Made by a program: the position numbers and the translations under genes. A stretch of 64,000 bases of DNA from NCBI RefSeq assembly GCF_003432035.1, contig NZ_QOHO01000062.1, positions 1 through 64,000 of the forward strand. The letters run 5' to 3'. Positions within the stretch are counted from its first letter, which is position 1. Every line of letters starts with the position of its first letter. Below the pieces are notes generated by a model. It was given only the letters and a program-made list of their open reading frames with translations, ran no database searches and was not told where the DNA came from. Positions 43,813-50,966 of the stretch are shown piece after piece. Source of the DNA: Lacrimispora amygdalina. GTDB lineage: Bacteria; Bacillota; Clostridia; Lachnospirales; Lachnospiraceae.

Positions 43813-43837
43813 AGACGGGGAAATTCGCCGTCTTTTT
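43813..43837 (+). terminator. Terminator of galE
   Basis: AGACGG-N-GAA (43813-43822) pairs with TTC-N-CCGTCT (43824-43833), one internal mismatch, followed by a T-run. Confidence 0.7.
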
Positions 43838-43888: not shown

Positions 43889-43900
43889 GAACATATATTC
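43889..43900 (+). promoter_or_regulatory. Degenerate second LexA (SOS) box
   Basis: GAACATATATTC differs at one position from GAAC-N4-GTTC. It lies just upstream of the -35 box of the radical SAM gene, with its centre 58 bp before the perfect box at 43947. Confidence 0.45.
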
Positions 43901-43908
43901 GAAAATGC

Positions 43909-43937
43909 TTGAAATCTTTTAATAAGTATGCTAAAAT
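43909..43937 (+). promoter_or_regulatory. Promoter of the radical SAM DNA-repair pair
   Basis: TTGAAA (43909-43914), 17-nt spacer, TAAAAT (43932-43937). Confidence 0.65.
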
Positions 43938-43946
43938 CCTTATTAA

Positions 43947-43958
43947 GAACAAATGTTC
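43947..43958 (+). promoter_or_regulatory. LexA (SOS) box over the start site
   Basis: GAACAAATGTTC matches the Bacillus/Clostridium LexA site GAAC-N4-GTTC at all eight fixed bases, and a G follows as in the longer consensus. It begins 9 nt after the -10 box, where bound LexA would block initiation. Confidence 0.8.
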
Positions 43959-43969
43959 GAGGTGAAGAG

Positions 43970-45298
43970 ATGCTAATACAGGAAGCGTTAAGTGTTCAGG
44001 AAAAATTAGAGATATTATCAGATGCTGCCAAGTATGATGTAGCCTGTACTTCCAGCGGAGTGGACCGCAAAGGGAAGGCAGGAACCATCGGCAATGCCAG
44101 CAAGGCAGGTATCTGCCACAGCTTTTCGGCAGATGGCAGGTGTATCTCTCTGCTCAAGATATTATTTACAAATCAGTGTATTTACGATTGCAAATACTGC
44201 ATCAACAGATCTTCCAATGACGTAGTCCGTACTGCGTTTACACCGGAGGAGGTTTGTCAGCTTACCATACAGTTTTACCGCCGTAATTATATTGAAGGTC
44301 TGTTTCTGAGTTCCGGTGTTTTAAACAGTGCTGATTATACCATGGACCTCATTTACCAGACCTTAAAAAAGCTGAGGGAGGAGTATCATTTTCATGGTTA
44401 TATTCATGTAAAAGCAATTCCGGGAGCAGATCCGTTATTGATTGAAAAGACAGGGTTTCTTGCAGACCGTATGAGCATTAACTTAGAACTGCCCACAGCA
44501 GAAGGACTGAAAAAGCTGGCTCCCGGGAAGAACCGTGACAAGATATTAAAGCCCATGAAGCAGATTCAGAATGGAATCGTGACCAATCGCTATGAATTGA
44601 TGGAATATAAAAAGACTCCTGCTTTTGTACCGGCTGGCCAGAGCACACAGATGATCGTCGGCGCTACACCCGAGAATGACTATCAGATGATGATGGTAGC
44701 AGAGGCGCTGTATAAGAATTATGATCTGAAAAGAGTATTTTATTCTGCATTTGTGCCGGTTAATCAGGACAGCAGCCTCCCTGCCCTTCCGGGAGGCCCC
44801 CCGCTTTTGAGAGAACACAGGCTTTATCAGGCGGACTGGCTGATGCGTTTTTATGGCTTTCAGGCAGGAGAACTTCTTTCCGAAGAGCGTCCTAATTTTA
44901 ATGTTCTTCTGGATCCCAAGTGTGACTGGGCACTCAGGCATCTGGAGCAGTTTCCGGTGGAAGTAAACCGTGCTGATTATTTCACTCTTCTGAGAGTTCC
45001 TGGTATGGGAGTGAAGTCTGTGAAACGAATACTGGCTGCCAGACGGAACGGAATATTGGATTTTGAGGCTTTAAAAAAGATGGGGGTAGTACTGAAAAGA
45101 GCTCATTATTTTATTACCTGTTCTGGTAAGATGATGTATCCTGTAAAGATTGAAGAGGATTATATATCCAGCCACCTGGTAGGTGATGAACGGAGAAGTG
45201 TCTGGGATATCAGCTCTACAGCAACTTACCGCCAGCTTTCCCTGTTTGACGATACCAGTCTGCTGGCACCGGCAGGCTCCGGAGGAATTATGGTATGA
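43970..45298 (+). CDS. Radical SAM protein, putative DNA modification/repair (TIGR03916-like)
   Basis: A 442-residue protein. The radical SAM cluster motif CxxxCxxC is at Cys70, Cys74 and Cys77 (CIYDCKYC). A C-terminal helix-hairpin-helix DNA-binding segment follows (about 340-385, RVPGMGVKSVKRILAAR). This layout matches the family called putative DNA modification/repair radical SAM protein, which is always paired with the TIGR03915 protein encoded next. The chemistry is not known to me. The ATG at 43970 follows GAGGTGA; the frame extends back across the SOS box and cannot be real there. The SOS box adds independent support for a DNA-damage role. Confidence 0.85.
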   Translation: MLIQEALSVQEKLEILSDAAKYDVACTSSGVDRKGKAGTIGNASKAGICHSFSADGRCISLLKILFTNQCIYDCKYCINRSSNDVVRTAFTPEEVCQLTIQFYRRNYIEGLFLSSGVLNSADYTMDLIYQTLKKLREEYHFHGYIHVKAIPGADPLLIEKTGFLADRMSINLELPTAEGLKKLAPGKNRDKILKPMKQIQNGIVTNRYELMEYKKTPAFVPAGQSTQMIVGATPENDYQMMMVAEALYKNYDLKRVFYSAFVPVNQDSSLPALPGGPPLLREHRLYQADWLMRFYGFQAGELLSEERPNFNVLLDPKCDWALRHLEQFPVEVNRADYFTLLRVPGMGVKSVKRILAARRNGILDFEALKKMGVVLKRAHYFITCSGKMMYPVKIEEDYISSHLVGDERRSVWDISSTATYRQLSLFDDTSLLAPAGSGGIMV

Positions 45299-46074
45299 AG
45301 ACGGTATATCTTTGTGACAGCAGTATAGAAGGGATTTTAAGCGGTGTTTATACCGCGTGGGCCAGTAAGAAAGGTCACGACAATGTGATGCTGCGGCTTA
45401 AGGATGACGGTATTACCATGGAACTGTTCTGCCAGTATGAAGAGGTGCCCATTGATTCCCAAAAGTCTGATAAAGTGATAGCAGCAATTAGAACTAAGAT
45501 TTCCGAGGAAGCCTATGAAGTTGTTTACAAAGCCGCTTTAAGTAATGATTTGGATCGTGCAGATAAGATATACCGCTTTCTGATCTGGGGATTTCATACA
45601 GGAGCAAGTATTGTCAGCATGCTTCAGATTCAGGCTGTTTACGACATATTTCATATGTGCCGCTTTGTCGATAATGAGACACACCATCTGACTGGTTTTG
45701 TCCGCTTTTTGGAGATGGAAGGAGACTTACTGGTAAGCCAGATTGGCCCGAAGAATGACATAATTGTTCTTCTTGCACCACATTTTGCAGATCGCCTCTC
45801 AGGTGAGAACTGGGTAATATATGATGCAAACAGAAAAAAGGCCGTTCTCCATCCGGCATTCCGTCCCTGGTATCTGACCGATTTTTTGTCACCCCAATGG
45901 GAAGATAAGATTACAAAATCGGAAAAAGAGGATGAATACGAAGATCTTTTCAGACGCTTCAGGAAGAGCATTTCTATTAAAGAACGTACAAATCCGGTCT
46001 GTCAGCTTAATCATATGCCTCTCCGCTTCAGGCCATATATGCCTGAATTTTCCAATGGGATAAGGGATGTCTGA
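45295..46074 (+). CDS. Partner of the radical SAM repair protein (TIGR03915/DUF4130-like)
   Basis: A 259-residue protein that overlaps the radical SAM gene by 4 nt (ATGA). It starts with YLCDSSIEGILSGVYTAW. The C-terminal half (from about 85) contains the SAM-associated DUF4130-type region with RFVDNETHHLTGFVRFLE and HFADRLSGENWVIYD. In other Firmicutes this protein is the constant neighbour of TIGR03916 proteins and is labelled a putative DNA metabolism or repair protein; some relatives are fused to uracil-DNA-glycosylase domains. The overlap and shared SOS promoter imply a complex or two steps of one repair. Confidence 0.82.
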   Translation: MKTVYLCDSSIEGILSGVYTAWASKKGHDNVMLRLKDDGITMELFCQYEEVPIDSQKSDKVIAAIRTKISEEAYEVVYKAALSNDLDRADKIYRFLIWGFHTGASIVSMLQIQAVYDIFHMCRFVDNETHHLTGFVRFLEMEGDLLVSQIGPKNDIIVLLAPHFADRLSGENWVIYDANRKKAVLHPAFRPWYLTDFLSPQWEDKITKSEKEDEYEDLFRRFRKSISIKERTNPVCQLNHMPLRFRPYMPEFSNGIRDV

Positions 46075-46106
46075 CGGGGTTTGACAGTGATGTCAATATT
46101 TCTTGG

Positions 46107-46151
46107 AAAAAGCAGAAAAAGTGAGAAAATAGTTGCCTTTTTCTGCTTTTT
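46107..46151 (+). terminator. Terminator of the radical SAM pair
   Basis: A perfect 15-bp stem: 46107-46121 (AAAAAGCAGAAAAAG) with 46137-46151, loop 15 nt, T-rich descending arm. Confidence 0.8.
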
Positions 46152-46247
46152 AAGTTATCATAAATTTAATCCGGTTCCGGATATTCCAAGTGCATTTCTG
46201 CATGAATTTCCATTTTTATTTCCTTTATATTTGAAAGGAGCGTTTAA

Positions 46248-47789
46248 TTGTATAGTAAAGTTCATAGTATTGGTATTATTGGCGTAGAGGGGGTCCCGAT
46301 TCTTGTGGAGGCGGATGTCAGCGACGGGCTGCCTGGGTTCTCTATGGTGGGTTATCTTTCTTCCCAGGTAAAGGAGGCACAGGACAGAGTCAGAACTGCC
46401 CTTAAAAACTCGGGCTTTCGCATTCCTGCCAAAAAGATAACCATCAATCTCTCTCCTGCAGATATCAGAAAAGAAGGGACTGCTTTTGATCTTCCCATTG
46501 CAATTGCAATTTTATCTGCTTCTGGTATGATCCGGTCTTCTGGTTTGTCGAACTGTGTATTTTCCGGAGAACTGGGGCTGGATGGTACAGTAAAACCTGT
46601 GCCCGGGGCGCTTTCTATTGTTCTCGCTGCAAAAAAGGACGGAAAGACAGTATGCTATCTTCCCAGAGAGAACAGGGGAGAAGGATCAGTTACAACTGGT
46701 ATACAGGTTGTGGGACTGGATACCTTAAAGGATTTGACAGATTACTTAAATGGTATAAGAAAACTGCCGGAGTTCCCTGCTGATCAAAAGCTGCCTGGAT
46801 CTGCTGGAAAAAATTATGATGTGGATTTTTCAGACATAGGAGGCCAGCCGTTTTTAAGACGTGCCACTGAAGTTGCTGCAGCGGGAATGCATAACATTAT
46901 GTATATCGGTCCTGCAGGGACAGGAAAAACCATGTTTGCCAAACGAATTCCCACCATCATGCCATCTCTTTGTTTTGAAGAAATCATGGAAATCTCTAAA
47001 ATATACAGTGTTTGCGGTCTGCTTTCCGGGGAGAATCCCGTTATGAGTACCCGGCCCTTTCGCAGTCCGCATCATACCATCAGCCCTCAGGCACTTGCAG
47101 GGGGCGGACGCATTCCAAAGCCGGGAGAGTTAACTCTGGCTTCGGGCGGTGTATTATTTCTGGATGAATTGACCGAATTTCAAAAATCCACCATTGAGAT
47201 TTTAAGACAGCCTCTGGAAGAGGGGGAAATCACCATTACAAGAACTCACGGGGCTTATAGATTTCCTGCAAAATTTCTATTGGCGGCTGCAATGAACCCA
47301 TGTCCTTGTGGATTTTATCCGGACAGAACGAAGTGCAGATGTTCTGAAAGCCAGGTAAACAAATATCTGGGAAGAATCTCAAAACCAATACTGGACAGAT
47401 TTGATATCTGTGCTGAATCAAGTCCGGTCAGTTATAAGGATTTGAAGCAGGGAGAAAAAGGGGAAGCCTCCGCATCCATCAGAATCCGTATAGAGCAGGC
47501 AAGATCCATGCAGATGGAGCGGTTTAAGGGCACAAGAATACATTTTAACAGTTTTATGAAGAAAACGGATCTGGAACGATTCTGCTGCCTGGATAAAGCA
47601 GAAGAGCTGTTTCTAAAGCAAATCTATGAATCAATGGGACTCAGTGTCAGGGGATATGAGAAAATCCTAAAAATTGCAAGAACCATTGCAGATCTGGAAG
47701 GCGCTGAAAAAATGACAAAAAACCATCTGGCCGAAGCTGCCGGTCTGCGCAGCCGGGAAGGCAGGTTCTGGGGAGGTATTTATGGATAA
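46248..47789 (+). CDS. yifB: YifB/ComM-family Mg-chelatase-like AAA+ ATPase
   Basis: A 513-residue protein with a TTG start behind AAGGAG. The residues MYSKVHS-x-GIIGVEG are the usual beginning of this family, which supports that start. An N-terminal Lon-like domain (about 1-160, NLSPADIRKEGTAFDLPIA) is followed by the AAA+ core with Walker A GPAGTGKTMFAKRIP, Walker B GVLFLDELTEF, and the C-terminal Mg_chelatase domain (FCCLDKAEELF). ComM is a hexameric helicase promoting branch migration during natural transformation in other bacteria. It overlaps dprA by 8 nt, so both probably serve incoming DNA. Confidence 0.9.
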   Translation: MYSKVHSIGIIGVEGVPILVEADVSDGLPGFSMVGYLSSQVKEAQDRVRTALKNSGFRIPAKKITINLSPADIRKEGTAFDLPIAIAILSASGMIRSSGLSNCVFSGELGLDGTVKPVPGALSIVLAAKKDGKTVCYLPRENRGEGSVTTGIQVVGLDTLKDLTDYLNGIRKLPEFPADQKLPGSAGKNYDVDFSDIGGQPFLRRATEVAAAGMHNIMYIGPAGTGKTMFAKRIPTIMPSLCFEEIMEISKIYSVCGLLSGENPVMSTRPFRSPHHTISPQALAGGGRIPKPGELTLASGGVLFLDELTEFQKSTIEILRQPLEEGEITITRTHGAYRFPAKFLLAAAMNPCPCGFYPDRTKCRCSESQVNKYLGRISKPILDRFDICAESSPVSYKDLKQGEKGEASASIRIRIEQARSMQMERFKGTRIHFNSFMKKTDLERFCCLDKAEELFLKQIYESMGLSVRGYEKILKIARTIADLEGAEKMTKNHLAEAAGLRSREGRFWGGIYG

Positions 47790-48882
47790 TCTGGAAGAAC
47801 GGGAATGTCTGTACTGGCTTTCCCACATTCCGTTTCTTGGAGCGGTGAAAATAAAAAAGCTGCATGATTACATGGGAAGTTATAAGAAGATATATAATAT
47901 AGAAAGAAAGGAACTGGAAGGCTGCGGGCTTTTAAAACAAAGTGAGATATCGCTTTTGGAAGAACGAAAATCCCATATGAAATCCATTCGTATCCAGCTG
48001 GAACAATTAGAGAAAAGAGGAATACGCTTTATCCCTCATTTTGATCATGATTATCCAAAGCGGCTTCTATCTGTTTATGGATACCCTGTCGGGCTTTTTG
48101 TAAAGGGAAACCTGCCGCCAGAGGAGAAACCTGCCGCAGCTATCATTGGAGCCAGAAACTGTACCAATTACGGACGCCAGATGGCAGTATTCTTAGCAAG
48201 GGAGCTATCCGCTGCGGGAATATCGATTATCAGCGGTCTGGCAAACGGAATAGACGGAGCGGGACATGAGGGCGCTCTTGAGGCGGGGCAGGAGACGTAC
48301 GGCGTATTGGGGTGCGGAATCAATATCTGTTACCCAAAAGAAAATTACGGATTATACAGACGCATGGCAGACTGCGGAGGCATTATAACGGAATTCATGC
48401 CTGATGAAGCACCAAAACCTCAGAATTTTCCCATGAGAAACCGGATCATAAGCGGGCTGTCCGATGTGATTCTTGTAATCGAGGCCCGGGAAAAGAGCGG
48501 ATCCCTGATTACGGCTAATCTTGGACTGGAACAGGGAAAAGAGATTTTTGCCCTTCCGGGGAGGGTGACAGACCCCTTAAGTACGGGCTGTAACTGCCTG
48601 ATTTCGGAAGGGGCAGGTGTATTGCTGTCTCCGGAAACTGTGTTGGAATATTTTAAATTACAAAGCGGTAAAATATTAAGAGTTCATGAAAAAAATAAGA
48701 ACAGGCTTGCCAAAAAAGAAAAAATGGTGTATAGTTGCCTAGATTTGCAACCGAAGAATCTGGAAGAGATTGTGAGATGCAGCGGATTGTCTGTCAGCGA
48801 GTGCATGGGTGTCCTTTTGGAACTGGAATTAAAGGGCAGCATTATACAGACATCCCATCAATATTATGGTAAGAAACAATAG
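47782..48882 (+). CDS. dprA: DNA-processing protein DprA
   Basis: A 366-residue DprA. The Rossmann-like core (about 105-320) includes AIIGARNCTNYGRQMA, SGLANGIDGAGHEGAL and NFPMRNRIISGLS. An N-terminal SAM/HhH-like region and a C-terminal winged helix (about 310-366, VRCSGLSVSECMGVLLELEL) are present. DprA loads RecA on single-stranded DNA during transformation. The ATG at 47782 follows GGGGAGG. The order yifB-dprA-topA is conserved in Firmicutes. Confidence 0.94.
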   Translation: MDNLEERECLYWLSHIPFLGAVKIKKLHDYMGSYKKIYNIERKELEGCGLLKQSEISLLEERKSHMKSIRIQLEQLEKRGIRFIPHFDHDYPKRLLSVYGYPVGLFVKGNLPPEEKPAAAIIGARNCTNYGRQMAVFLARELSAAGISIISGLANGIDGAGHEGALEAGQETYGVLGCGINICYPKENYGLYRRMADCGGIITEFMPDEAPKPQNFPMRNRIISGLSDVILVIEAREKSGSLITANLGLEQGKEIFALPGRVTDPLSTGCNCLISEGAGVLLSPETVLEYFKLQSGKILRVHEKNKNRLAKKEKMVYSCLDLQPKNLEEIVRCSGLSVSECMGVLLELELKGSIIQTSHQYYGKKQ

Positions 48883-48896
48883 GCGAGGAGTTTGGT

Positions 48897-50966
48897 ATGG
48901 CGAACTGTTTAGTAATTGTGGAGTCACCCGCAAAAGTAAAAACTATAAAAAAGTTTCTTGGGGCGAACTATGAAGTAGATGCTTCCAATGGACATGTAAG
49001 GGATCTTCCCAAGAGTCAGATGGGAATCGATGTGGAACATGATTTTGATCCAAAATATATAACGATCAGGGGAAAAGGGGATATACTTGCAAAACTGAGA
49101 AAAGAAGTAAAAAAAGCAGATAAGATTTATCTCGCAACTGACCCTGACCGTGAAGGAGAAGCGATTTCCTGGCATTTAATGAAAGCTCTGAAATTAGATG
49201 AGCTGAAAGAAAAACAGGTATACCGGATCAGCTTTAATGAGATTACCAAAAATGCGGTGAAAACTTCTTTAAAAACTCCAAGAGCGATTGATATGGATCT
49301 GGTGGATGCACAGCAGGCCAGAAGAGTTCTGGACCGAATGGTTGGATATATGATCAGCCCTCTTTTATGGGCCAAGGTGAAAAGGGGATTGAGTGCCGGA
49401 CGCGTTCAGTCTGTGGCGCTCCGTCTGATCTGCGACCGGGAAGAGGACATCAATGCTTTTATACCGGAGGAATACTGGAATCTGGATGCGGACTTAAAGC
49501 AGGATGGAAGCAAGAAGACACTGAAGGCAAAATTCTATGGCGACAAGAATGGAAGAATTACCATTCATAATAAGGAAGAACTGGAAAACATACTTGCCGG
49601 ACTTAATAATAAAGAATACCAGGTCGATGAGGTAAAGGCAGGGGAACGGGTAAAGAAAGCGCCCATTCCATTTACGACCAGTACGCTTCAGCAGGAAGCT
49701 TCCAAGGTACTTAATTTTTCAACTCAAAAGACCATGCGTCTGGCTCAGCAGTTATATGAAGGTGTAGAGGTTGCCGGTCATGGCACCGTAGGTCTTATCA
49801 CCTATTTGAGAACTGATTCTACCAGAATCGCAGAAGAGGCTGATGTAGCAGCCAGGGAGTTTATTGAGAAGCAGTACGGCAGCCGTTATCTGGCAAACGG
49901 AGAACAGAACAAAAAAAGCAATGTTAAGATACAGGATGCCCACGAGGCGATTCGTCCTACAGACATTGCCCTGACACCGGTGATTGTAAAAGAATCCCTT
50001 CAGAGAGATTTATTCCGCCTCTATCAGCTGATCTGGAAGAGATTTGCAGCCAGCAGAATGCAGCCGGCCGTGTATGAGACTACCTCTGTGAAGGTAAAAG
50101 CAGGAAACTATTTATTTACGCTTTCAGCTTCAAAACTTCAATTTGATGGTTTTATGTCTGTTTATGTGCAGGAAGAAGAAAAAGAAGAAAACAATATTCT
50201 TCTTGGCAATCTGGAAAAAGGCAGTATACTTAAACTGGAGAAACTGGAAAACAGCCAGCATTTTACCCAGCCCCCCGCTCATTTTACGGAAGCATCGCTT
50301 GTAAAAGCAATGGAAGAACAGGGAATTGGACGTCCAAGTACTTATGCTCCTACAATTACAACGATAATAGCCAGACGGTATGTGGCAAAAGAAAATAAAA
50401 ATCTTTACGTGACAGAACTGGGAGAAGTTGTCAACAGTATGATGAAACAAAGCTTTCCCAGCATTGTGGACATTACATTTACTGCGAATCTGGAATATCT
50501 TCTTGATAAAGTAGGAGATGGAACGGTACAGTGGAAGACAGTTGTTAAAAATTTCTATCCTGATTTAAAGGATGCGGTTGATAAGGCACTGGTAGAACTT
50601 GAATCTGTTACCATAGCCGATGAAGTGACCGAAGAAGTTTGTGAACTGTGCGGCCGGAATATGGTTATTAAATATGGACCTCACGGGAAATTCCTTGCAT
50701 GTCCCGGTTTCCCGGAATGCAAGAATACGAAACCTTATCTGGAAAAGACAGGAGTTCCGTGTCCCAAGTGCGGCAAGGATGTAGTGATTAAGAAGACAAA
50801 GAAGGGCAGAATTTATTATGGCTGCGAGGCAAATCCTGACTGTGATTTTATGTCATGGCAAAAGCCTTCCACCCAGAAATGCCCTAAATGCGGTTCCTAT
50901 ATGGTTGAAAAAGGTAATAAGTTATTATGCTCCAATGAACAGTGCGGATACAGCACGGATAAATAG
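48897..50966 (+). CDS. topA: DNA topoisomerase I
   Basis: A 689-residue type IA topoisomerase. The Toprim domain (LVIVESPAKVKTIKKFLG, DPDREGEAI) is at the N-terminus. The catalytic tyrosine is Tyr303 (LITYLRTDSTRI). Three C-terminal zinc-binding repeats (from about residue 575) have CxxC pairs such as CELCGRNM, CPKCGKDV and CPKCGSYM. It relaxes negative supercoils behind RNA polymerase. It starts 14 nt after dprA with GCGAGGAG as ribosome site. Confidence 0.96.
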   Translation: MANCLVIVESPAKVKTIKKFLGANYEVDASNGHVRDLPKSQMGIDVEHDFDPKYITIRGKGDILAKLRKEVKKADKIYLATDPDREGEAISWHLMKALKLDELKEKQVYRISFNEITKNAVKTSLKTPRAIDMDLVDAQQARRVLDRMVGYMISPLLWAKVKRGLSAGRVQSVALRLICDREEDINAFIPEEYWNLDADLKQDGSKKTLKAKFYGDKNGRITIHNKEELENILAGLNNKEYQVDEVKAGERVKKAPIPFTTSTLQQEASKVLNFSTQKTMRLAQQLYEGVEVAGHGTVGLITYLRTDSTRIAEEADVAAREFIEKQYGSRYLANGEQNKKSNVKIQDAHEAIRPTDIALTPVIVKESLQRDLFRLYQLIWKRFAASRMQPAVYETTSVKVKAGNYLFTLSASKLQFDGFMSVYVQEEEKEENNILLGNLEKGSILKLEKLENSQHFTQPPAHFTEASLVKAMEEQGIGRPSTYAPTITTIIARRYVAKENKNLYVTELGEVVNSMMKQSFPSIVDITFTANLEYLLDKVGDGTVQWKTVVKNFYPDLKDAVDKALVELESVTIADEVTEEVCELCGRNMVIKYGPHGKFLACPGFPECKNTKPYLEKTGVPCPKCGKDVVIKKTKKGRIYYGCEANPDCDFMSWQKPSTQKCPKCGSYMVEKGNKLLCSNEQCGYSTDK

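Follow-up and report, generated by a model that had tools for sequence, protein, structure and literature searches.

Organization of the Locus

The subject of this study is a two-gene operon of Lacrimispora amygdalina (assembly GCF_003432035.1), found on the forward strand of contig NZ_QOHO01000062.1 within positions 1 to 64,000, a stretch that was analyzed as a whole and is referred to here as the window. The first gene encodes a radical S-adenosylmethionine (SAM) protein of family TIGR03916 and the second a protein carrying the domain of unknown function DUF4130. Two LexA-type boxes precede the pair and flank a predicted promoter: one lies ahead of the -35 element, and the other coincides with the place where transcription is predicted to begin (Table 1). 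An initial annotation, made from the DNA letters alone, had described GAACAAATGTTC as a perfect LexA site covering the start site, with a one-mismatch copy 58 bp upstream. That copy is indeed present, as GAACATATATTC, at a spacing of exactly 58 bp; the perfect site is confirmed as such, and "covering the start site" holds for the predicted start of transcription only, since the ATG at 43970 lies 11 bp beyond the downstream box. We prefer 43970 as the putative start codon because GAGGTG precedes it and TIGR03916 begins at residue 9 of that reading, and consider the ATG at 43928, which appears in the list of open reading frames (ORFs), a less likely start. The promoter is a consensus match only, promoter-type matches in the stretch numbering 4 versus 5.0 expected in shuffles. 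The ORF of the partner protein comes next after the radical SAM gene in all 65 complete loci of the same-family sample described below.

Table 1. Features of the operon and its flanks, with positions in the window.
Feature	Position	Strand	Remarks
Hairpin and T run upstream of the operon, taken to end the galE transcript	43813..43837	+	Pattern unique in window; fold z -4.31 with flanks; picked by eye
Upstream LexA-type box GAACATATATTC	43889..43900	+	1 mismatch; located 5' to the -35 element
Predicted sigma-70-type promoter, TTGAAA-N17-TAAAAT, TG before the -10 element	43909..43937	+	10/12 consensus matches
Downstream LexA-type box GAACAAATGTTC	43947..43958	+	0 mismatches to GAACNNNNGTTC; at the predicted transcription start
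Radical SAM protein, TIGR03916 (rSAM_link_UDG / COG4277 type), 442 aa	43970..45298	+	
Codons spanning invariant C26, C49, C58 and C70/C74/C77 (CxxxCxxC)	44045..44200	+	
Helix-hairpin-helix-like stretch, residues 329-370	44954..45079	+	
QLSLF codons, residues 422-426, candidate sliding-clamp-binding motif in disordered tail	45233..45247	+	
Partner protein, TIGR03915 / DUF4130, 259 aa	45295..46074	+	4 bp overlap with the first gene
Hairpin then T run 3' of the second gene, likely operon end	46102..46156	+	-17.3 kcal/mol, z -4.03; picked by eye

Conservation of the LexA-Type Boxes

Sites of this kind are no more numerous than chance predicts, either in the window (15 matches at up to one mismatch versus 18.4 expected) or in the genome, which has 48 perfect palindromes versus 63 for a reversed control pattern. 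Since a site by itself is not enough to assign a gene to the regulon, conservation was tested; by arithmetic, 48 perfect sites in 5.94 Mb correspond to approximately 0.0016 per 200 bp. The case for the putative boxes thus consists of their position and conservation, not of site numbers.

For each locus, the 200 bp preceding the profile match were searched for boxes with no more than one mismatch, and the same segments were put through 200 rounds of letter shuffling. In a same-family sample, TIGR03916 matches occurred in 70 of 120 sampled genomes, 67 of them over the cut-off. The 67 loci read came from 66 genomes (G045 gave two, one of which is a 237-residue fragment); before counting, L070 was excluded for its missing start, as were the G025 and G031:C8 fragments and matches scoring well below the cut-off. 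At least one box precedes 65 of the 67 loci (shuffle mean 3.46, largest 11), at least two precede 54 (shuffle mean 0.10), and a perfect box precedes 33 (shuffle mean 0.13). Control segments gave 3/67 at 500-700 bp upstream, 3/64 at 700-900 bp upstream and 1/66 downstream, and the reversed pattern was found in 4/67 of the loci. The two loci with no box at up to one mismatch are L048 and L063. The initial annotation had suggested scanning homologous loci for the same box, and other genomes do carry it. Spacings between neighboring boxes in these loci fall largely into two classes, 23-32 bp (20/57) and 54-63 bp (20/57); the 58 bp of the window belongs to the latter, with the promoter between the boxes.

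Two further samples were read. Among 80 named loci, the top-ranking of at least 593 and partly from organisms already in the 67, a box was found in 64 and two or more in 45; the closest of these best 80 is [Clostridium] aerotolerans (88% identity). A phylum-wide sample comprised 29 new, best-scoring loci, one of which was left out of the box count for want of upstream DNA; a box was present in 22/28 and two or more in 5/28.

The host genome encodes LexA (profile 240 bits). The other 47 perfect sites were read in context: 28 fall within ORFs of 150 codons or more, and those at recognized SOS genes are at recA, uvrB, lexA-yneA and a gene for a rarA-like AAA ATPase, identified by profile, the uvrB and rarA-like frames being partial. 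Profiles were used only for recA, uvrB, rarA-like, lexA and yneA, the neighbors of the remaining sites were judged by eye, and further SOS genes may be missed. The identical 12-mer GAACAAATGTTC stands, in transcription direction, before uvrB and before the rarA-like gene (C98:92862, L087), while recA and lexA-yneA have variants of the box. A replication-restart factor, the rarA-like protein, may thus share SOS control. Several other features of this genome were seen in passing. A second LexA-like protein is encoded at C15:22039-22644 (L002; 187 bits, over cut-off), the lexA-yneA intergenic region (C101:71869 region, L095) has four box-like sites, of which one is perfect and the other three have a single mismatch, and perfect AT-rich boxes with no recognized SOS gene nearby, possibly marking further SOS targets, are found at C137:47878 (L104), C143:51103 and C143:55323 (L106).

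Sixteen plasmid- or phage-labelled loci were chosen by hand. The Bacillota-type box was not found in any of 8 alphaproteobacterial plasmid loci, and all 8 of these hand-chosen loci have a perfect GAAC-N7-GAAC, which we take to be the alphaproteobacterial LexA type, within 200 bp upstream. A betaproteobacterial locus (Caballeronia, 1/1) has a perfect CTGT-N8-ACAG. An exact 8-base pattern is expected approximately 0.003 times per 200 bp by arithmetic assuming equal base use. In total, 9/9 hand-chosen proteobacterial loci carry the LexA-type box of their own lineage, and because of this SOS control seems, from these sequences, to have stayed with the operon while LexA specificity changed. A reading of the pair as mobile cargo was rejected: matches occurred in 10/50,697 phage records, and 35 candidate stretches from viral contigs yielded 2 relatives, although 158/72,556 plasmid records have a match, many of them on large replicons. 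A role in anti-phage defence was likewise rejected, neither the radical SAM protein nor the DUF4130 partner having a PADLOC match.

Because the boxes are conserved in relatives, because the same box stands at uvrB with variants at recA and lexA-yneA, and because proteobacterial loci carry lineage-type boxes, we regard the operon as almost certainly under SOS (LexA) control. The same observations, including the 9/9 proteobacterial orthologs, support the LexA control read by the initial annotation; the radical chemistry on damaged bases that it suggested would be a possible activity of the enzyme.

Relation to Previous Work

The main inference of the initial annotation was right but already known. 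COG4277 is, as we take it, the COG to which the TIGR03916 radical SAM family belongs. The SOS link is not new because it is in print both for C. acetobutylicum (PMC3828012) and for COG4277 operons of other phyla (PMC8565304). In C. acetobutylicum, CAC3343-CAC3344 were predicted in 2013, by footprinting and expression clustering, to belong to the LexA regulon (PMC3828012). That pair belongs to another genus; its first gene has the annotation of our radical SAM protein and its second encodes a protein of unknown function, and the excerpted account mentions no mechanism, clamp motif or partner fold (PMC3828012). COG1573-COG4277 operons have been reported in the SOS networks of Bacteroidetes, with Alphaproteobacteria and Verrucomicrobia cited, and are regarded there as a putative system for base excision (PMC8565304). 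Those operons share SOS control with the one studied here, for which it is predicted; the partner there is described as a uracil-DNA glycosylase (UDG), whereas here it is a DUF4130 protein with no UDG domain. The spore photoproduct lyase SplB, a radical SAM DNA repair protein as the one here would be, is SOS-linked in some bacteria (PMC8565304), and a protein with the same annotation as ours was upregulated in desiccated Acinetobacter (PMC13130816). In a C. difficile LexA survey the word "radical" is absent from the main text (PMC4234289).

A Clamp-Type Motif in the Tail of the Radical SAM Protein

The new part of the finding, and one that can be tested, is a clamp-type motif near the C terminus of the radical SAM protein, where the sequence reads TYRQLSLFDD. 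Clamp-binding proteins of bacteria most commonly use the motif QL[S/D]LF (in general form QxxLF), and a QLSLF peptide from PolC binds the B. subtilis clamp DnaN with an affinity in the micromolar range (PMC12309361). The PolC of the host genome ends in NQLSLFDLA, and its gene, polC, is on the same contig as the operon, beyond the window. No earlier claim of a clamp-binding motif in a radical SAM protein of this kind was visible in the literature searched.

The final 45 residues were scanned with a loose pattern, Q[LMIV]x[LMFI]F, and a strict one, QL[SD]LF. Among the 65 complete same-family proteins 61 have the loose motif and 39 the strict one; among the 80 named proteins the counts are 73 and 42. 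Controls for the loose motif gave 1/248 neighboring proteins, 0/77 partner proteins and a mean of 0.76/80 shuffled tails. Within 57 aligned proteins Q422 is conserved in 57, S424 in 55, F426 in 55, L425 in 47 and L423 in 41, and the best flanking columns are D427 (39), D428 (30) and Y420 (29). The alphaproteobacterial proteins have the motif in their last seven residues, as QLTLF, QLALF, QLSLF or QLELF and also as QLQLL and QLSLL. In the phylum sample, 21/29 proteins have a loose match within the last 60 residues, and several of the non-matches end in variants such as QLSLW or QLPLDF.

In the predicted model of the protein, residues 412-442 have a predicted local distance difference test (pLDDT) score below 50, and QLSLF is therein, in an accessible segment as expected of clamp clients. 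Five conserved residues that stand out within a disordered tail, and do so in several phyla, have the look of a docking motif. Judged from its sequence, the radical SAM protein probably docks on the sliding clamp.

The Radical SAM Domain and the DUF4130 Partner

The first protein scores 702.6 bits against TIGR03916 (cut-off 343.5), covering profile positions 1-415 of 415, and 31.1 bits against the Pfam radical SAM family PF04055 (cut-off 29.5). The family label, DNA modification/repair, is by prediction only, and no reaction is assigned to TIGR03916 proteins in the open-licence literature searched. Six cysteines (C26, C49, C58, C70, C74 and C77) are invariant in 57/57 aligned rows and in 8/8 rows across phyla; C26, C49 and C58 probably provide a second iron-sulfur (Fe-S) site. 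The initial annotation had credited the protein with a helix-hairpin-helix domain, and a match of this kind is real, although the Pfam HHH_3 score of 20 bits is under the cut-off of 27; a PDB profile match to a ComEA-related protein (E 8e-4) lends it support. The predicted model (pLDDT 83.2) found radical SAM fold matches, the nearest folds among the 50 listed being lipoyl synthase, HydE and biotin synthase, and PDB sequence relatives amounted to two partial matches. Lipoyl synthase, HydE and biotin synthase have protein-bound or small-molecule substrates, and they differ from the TIGR03916 protein in having neither its helix-hairpin-helix part nor its clamp-type tail. Many same-family radical SAM proteins (e.g., L009, L022 and L053) are 470-540 residues long versus approximately 440, and have an insertion.

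The partner scores 239 bits against TIGR03915 (cut-off 112.25) and 163.5 bits against PF13566 (cut-off 27). Its predicted model (pLDDT 91.9) has DHH/DHHA1-like fold matches of the RecJ/Cdc45 type, and a search for PDB sequence relatives returned one chance-level match only (E 0.64). Motifs do not support a reading of DUF4130 as a DHH phosphoesterase, DHH and GGGH being absent from the consensus of 57 sequences; in motif I (DxDxDG) the second aspartate (position 10) is S or T in 48/57. Membership in the DHH group found no support in profile-profile comparison either, which gave hhalign probabilities of 0.2 and 0.1 (unrelated control 0.1), while the positive control NrnA-RecJ, with profiles of 7 sequences each, gave E 0.0011. 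No Pfam DHH or DHHA1 model appeared for the 57 DUF4130 members among the 25 families listed. The resemblance to RecJ, Cdc45 and NrnA is one of predicted fold; DUF4130 has neither the DHH nor the GGGH motif of these DHH/DHHA1 proteins, and profiles lend the resemblance no support.

DUF4130 is fused to UdgX in 3/3 alphaproteobacterial partner proteins scanned, and three more are annotated as UdgX family. KRRIH, a motif of UdgX, was seen in 2/6 fusions, and nothing is claimed from it. No UDG family was found in either window protein, nor in the Bacillota and Bacteroidetes partner proteins scanned. The host genome has two UDG-superfamily genes, both on contigs other than that of the operon; a UDG-superfamily protein at C96:77409-77864 (L284:1480-2055) has 192 residues, 88 bits to PF03167 and no NCBIfam match.

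Flanking Features

A generic terminator scan listed neither of the two hairpins in Table 1. On the 3' side of the operon (window 46248-50966) are a gene for a YifB-type ATPase and then genes that look like dprA and topA, the latter two judged by eye.

Proposed Mechanism and Alternatives

From the boxes and their conservation, the gene order, the invariant cysteines, the tail motif and the fold resemblance, all of them read from sequence, we infer the following scheme. LexA would occupy the two boxes flanking the promoter, and DNA damage, by causing LexA cleavage, would derepress the operon along with recA, uvrB and lexA. In the radical SAM protein, C70/C74/C77 would bind the SAM cluster, C26, C49 and C58 would probably serve a second Fe-S site, the helix-hairpin-helix part would hold duplex DNA, and QLSLF in the flexible tail would dock on the clamp DnaN, as PolC does. 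The DUF4130 protein would most likely be a non-catalytic subunit of RecJ/Cdc45-like shape that binds the lesion or DNA. A SAM-derived radical would then reverse or trim a fork-blocking lesion, and the lesions may include uracil or abasic sites because DUF4130 is fused to UdgX in alphaproteobacteria. A role of the pair in handling DNA lesions is very likely. That the whole amounts to a LexA-repressed two-gene operon for a clamp-tethered radical SAM repair enzyme at the replication fork is a model we favor on balance. Its most specific form is put forward tentatively: an SOS-induced DnaN client, tethered through the peptide that PolC also has, which contains an additional Fe-S cluster and, with a RecJ/Cdc45-fold partner devoid of catalytic activity, reverses or unlocks lesions at stalled forks.

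Several observations weigh against this model. No box was found at up to one mismatch in 2/67, 16/80 and 6/28 loci of the three samples. Hand-chosen Fusobacterium, Spirosoma, Bacteroides and Gemmatirosa loci have no perfect box of the three types tried, among which the Bacteroidetes motifs of PMC8565304 were not included; the Spirosoma and Gemmatirosa loci have one-mismatch matches only. The loose tail pattern fails in 4/65, 7/80 and 8/29 proteins, some of which have near-variants such as QLSLW. DNA is not the substrate of the enzymes with the nearest folds (lipoyl synthase, HydE and biotin synthase), and the DHH-like reading of DUF4130 fails in profile-profile comparison and has no catalytic motifs to show.

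The pair could instead be an SOS-regulated base-excision arm that serves uracil or abasic-site repair with a uracil-DNA glycosylase, the clamp-like tail being secondary or unused. The alphaproteobacterial DUF4130-UdgX fusions speak for this, as does the published description of COG1573-COG4277 as a putative base-excision system (PMC8565304), but a UDG domain is missing from the window proteins and from the Bacillota and Bacteroidetes partners scanned, neither host UDG-superfamily gene is on the operon's contig, and the conserved tail motif would be left unexplained; we consider this reading unlikely, if the strongest of the alternatives. A direct-reversal enzyme of the spore photoproduct lyase type, splitting a pyrimidine lesion with no use of the clamp, appears less probable still. 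To our knowledge, SplB has neither the three further invariant cysteines nor the constant partner gene seen here, and the list of 50 fold matches, drawn up without a direct comparison with SplB, features lipoyl synthase and HydE types but no spore photoproduct lyase, an absence that is no disproof. Against these points, proteins of the present kind have been called SplB-like radical SAM photolyases associated with DUF4130 (PMC3765255).

The enzyme might also act on a target other than DNA, such as a cofactor, RNA or protein, its SOS membership reflecting a need during arrested growth. The predicted nature of the family's DNA modification/repair name and the identity of the nearest solved folds would agree with this, but DNA is indicated by the boxes in several lineages, by the helix-hairpin-helix-like stretch, by the clamp-type tail and by the UdgX fusion, and we hold a non-DNA target to be very improbable.

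Implications

If the radical SAM enzyme is a clamp client as the favored model proposes, it would add another route of fork rescue to those of translesion synthesis, recombination and excision, and radical chemistry would join replication-coupled repair. TIGR03916 proteins are common, and SOS boxes precede their genes in several lineages. The conserved clamp-type tail makes a "putative repair protein" testable, and points to stalled forks during the SOS response.

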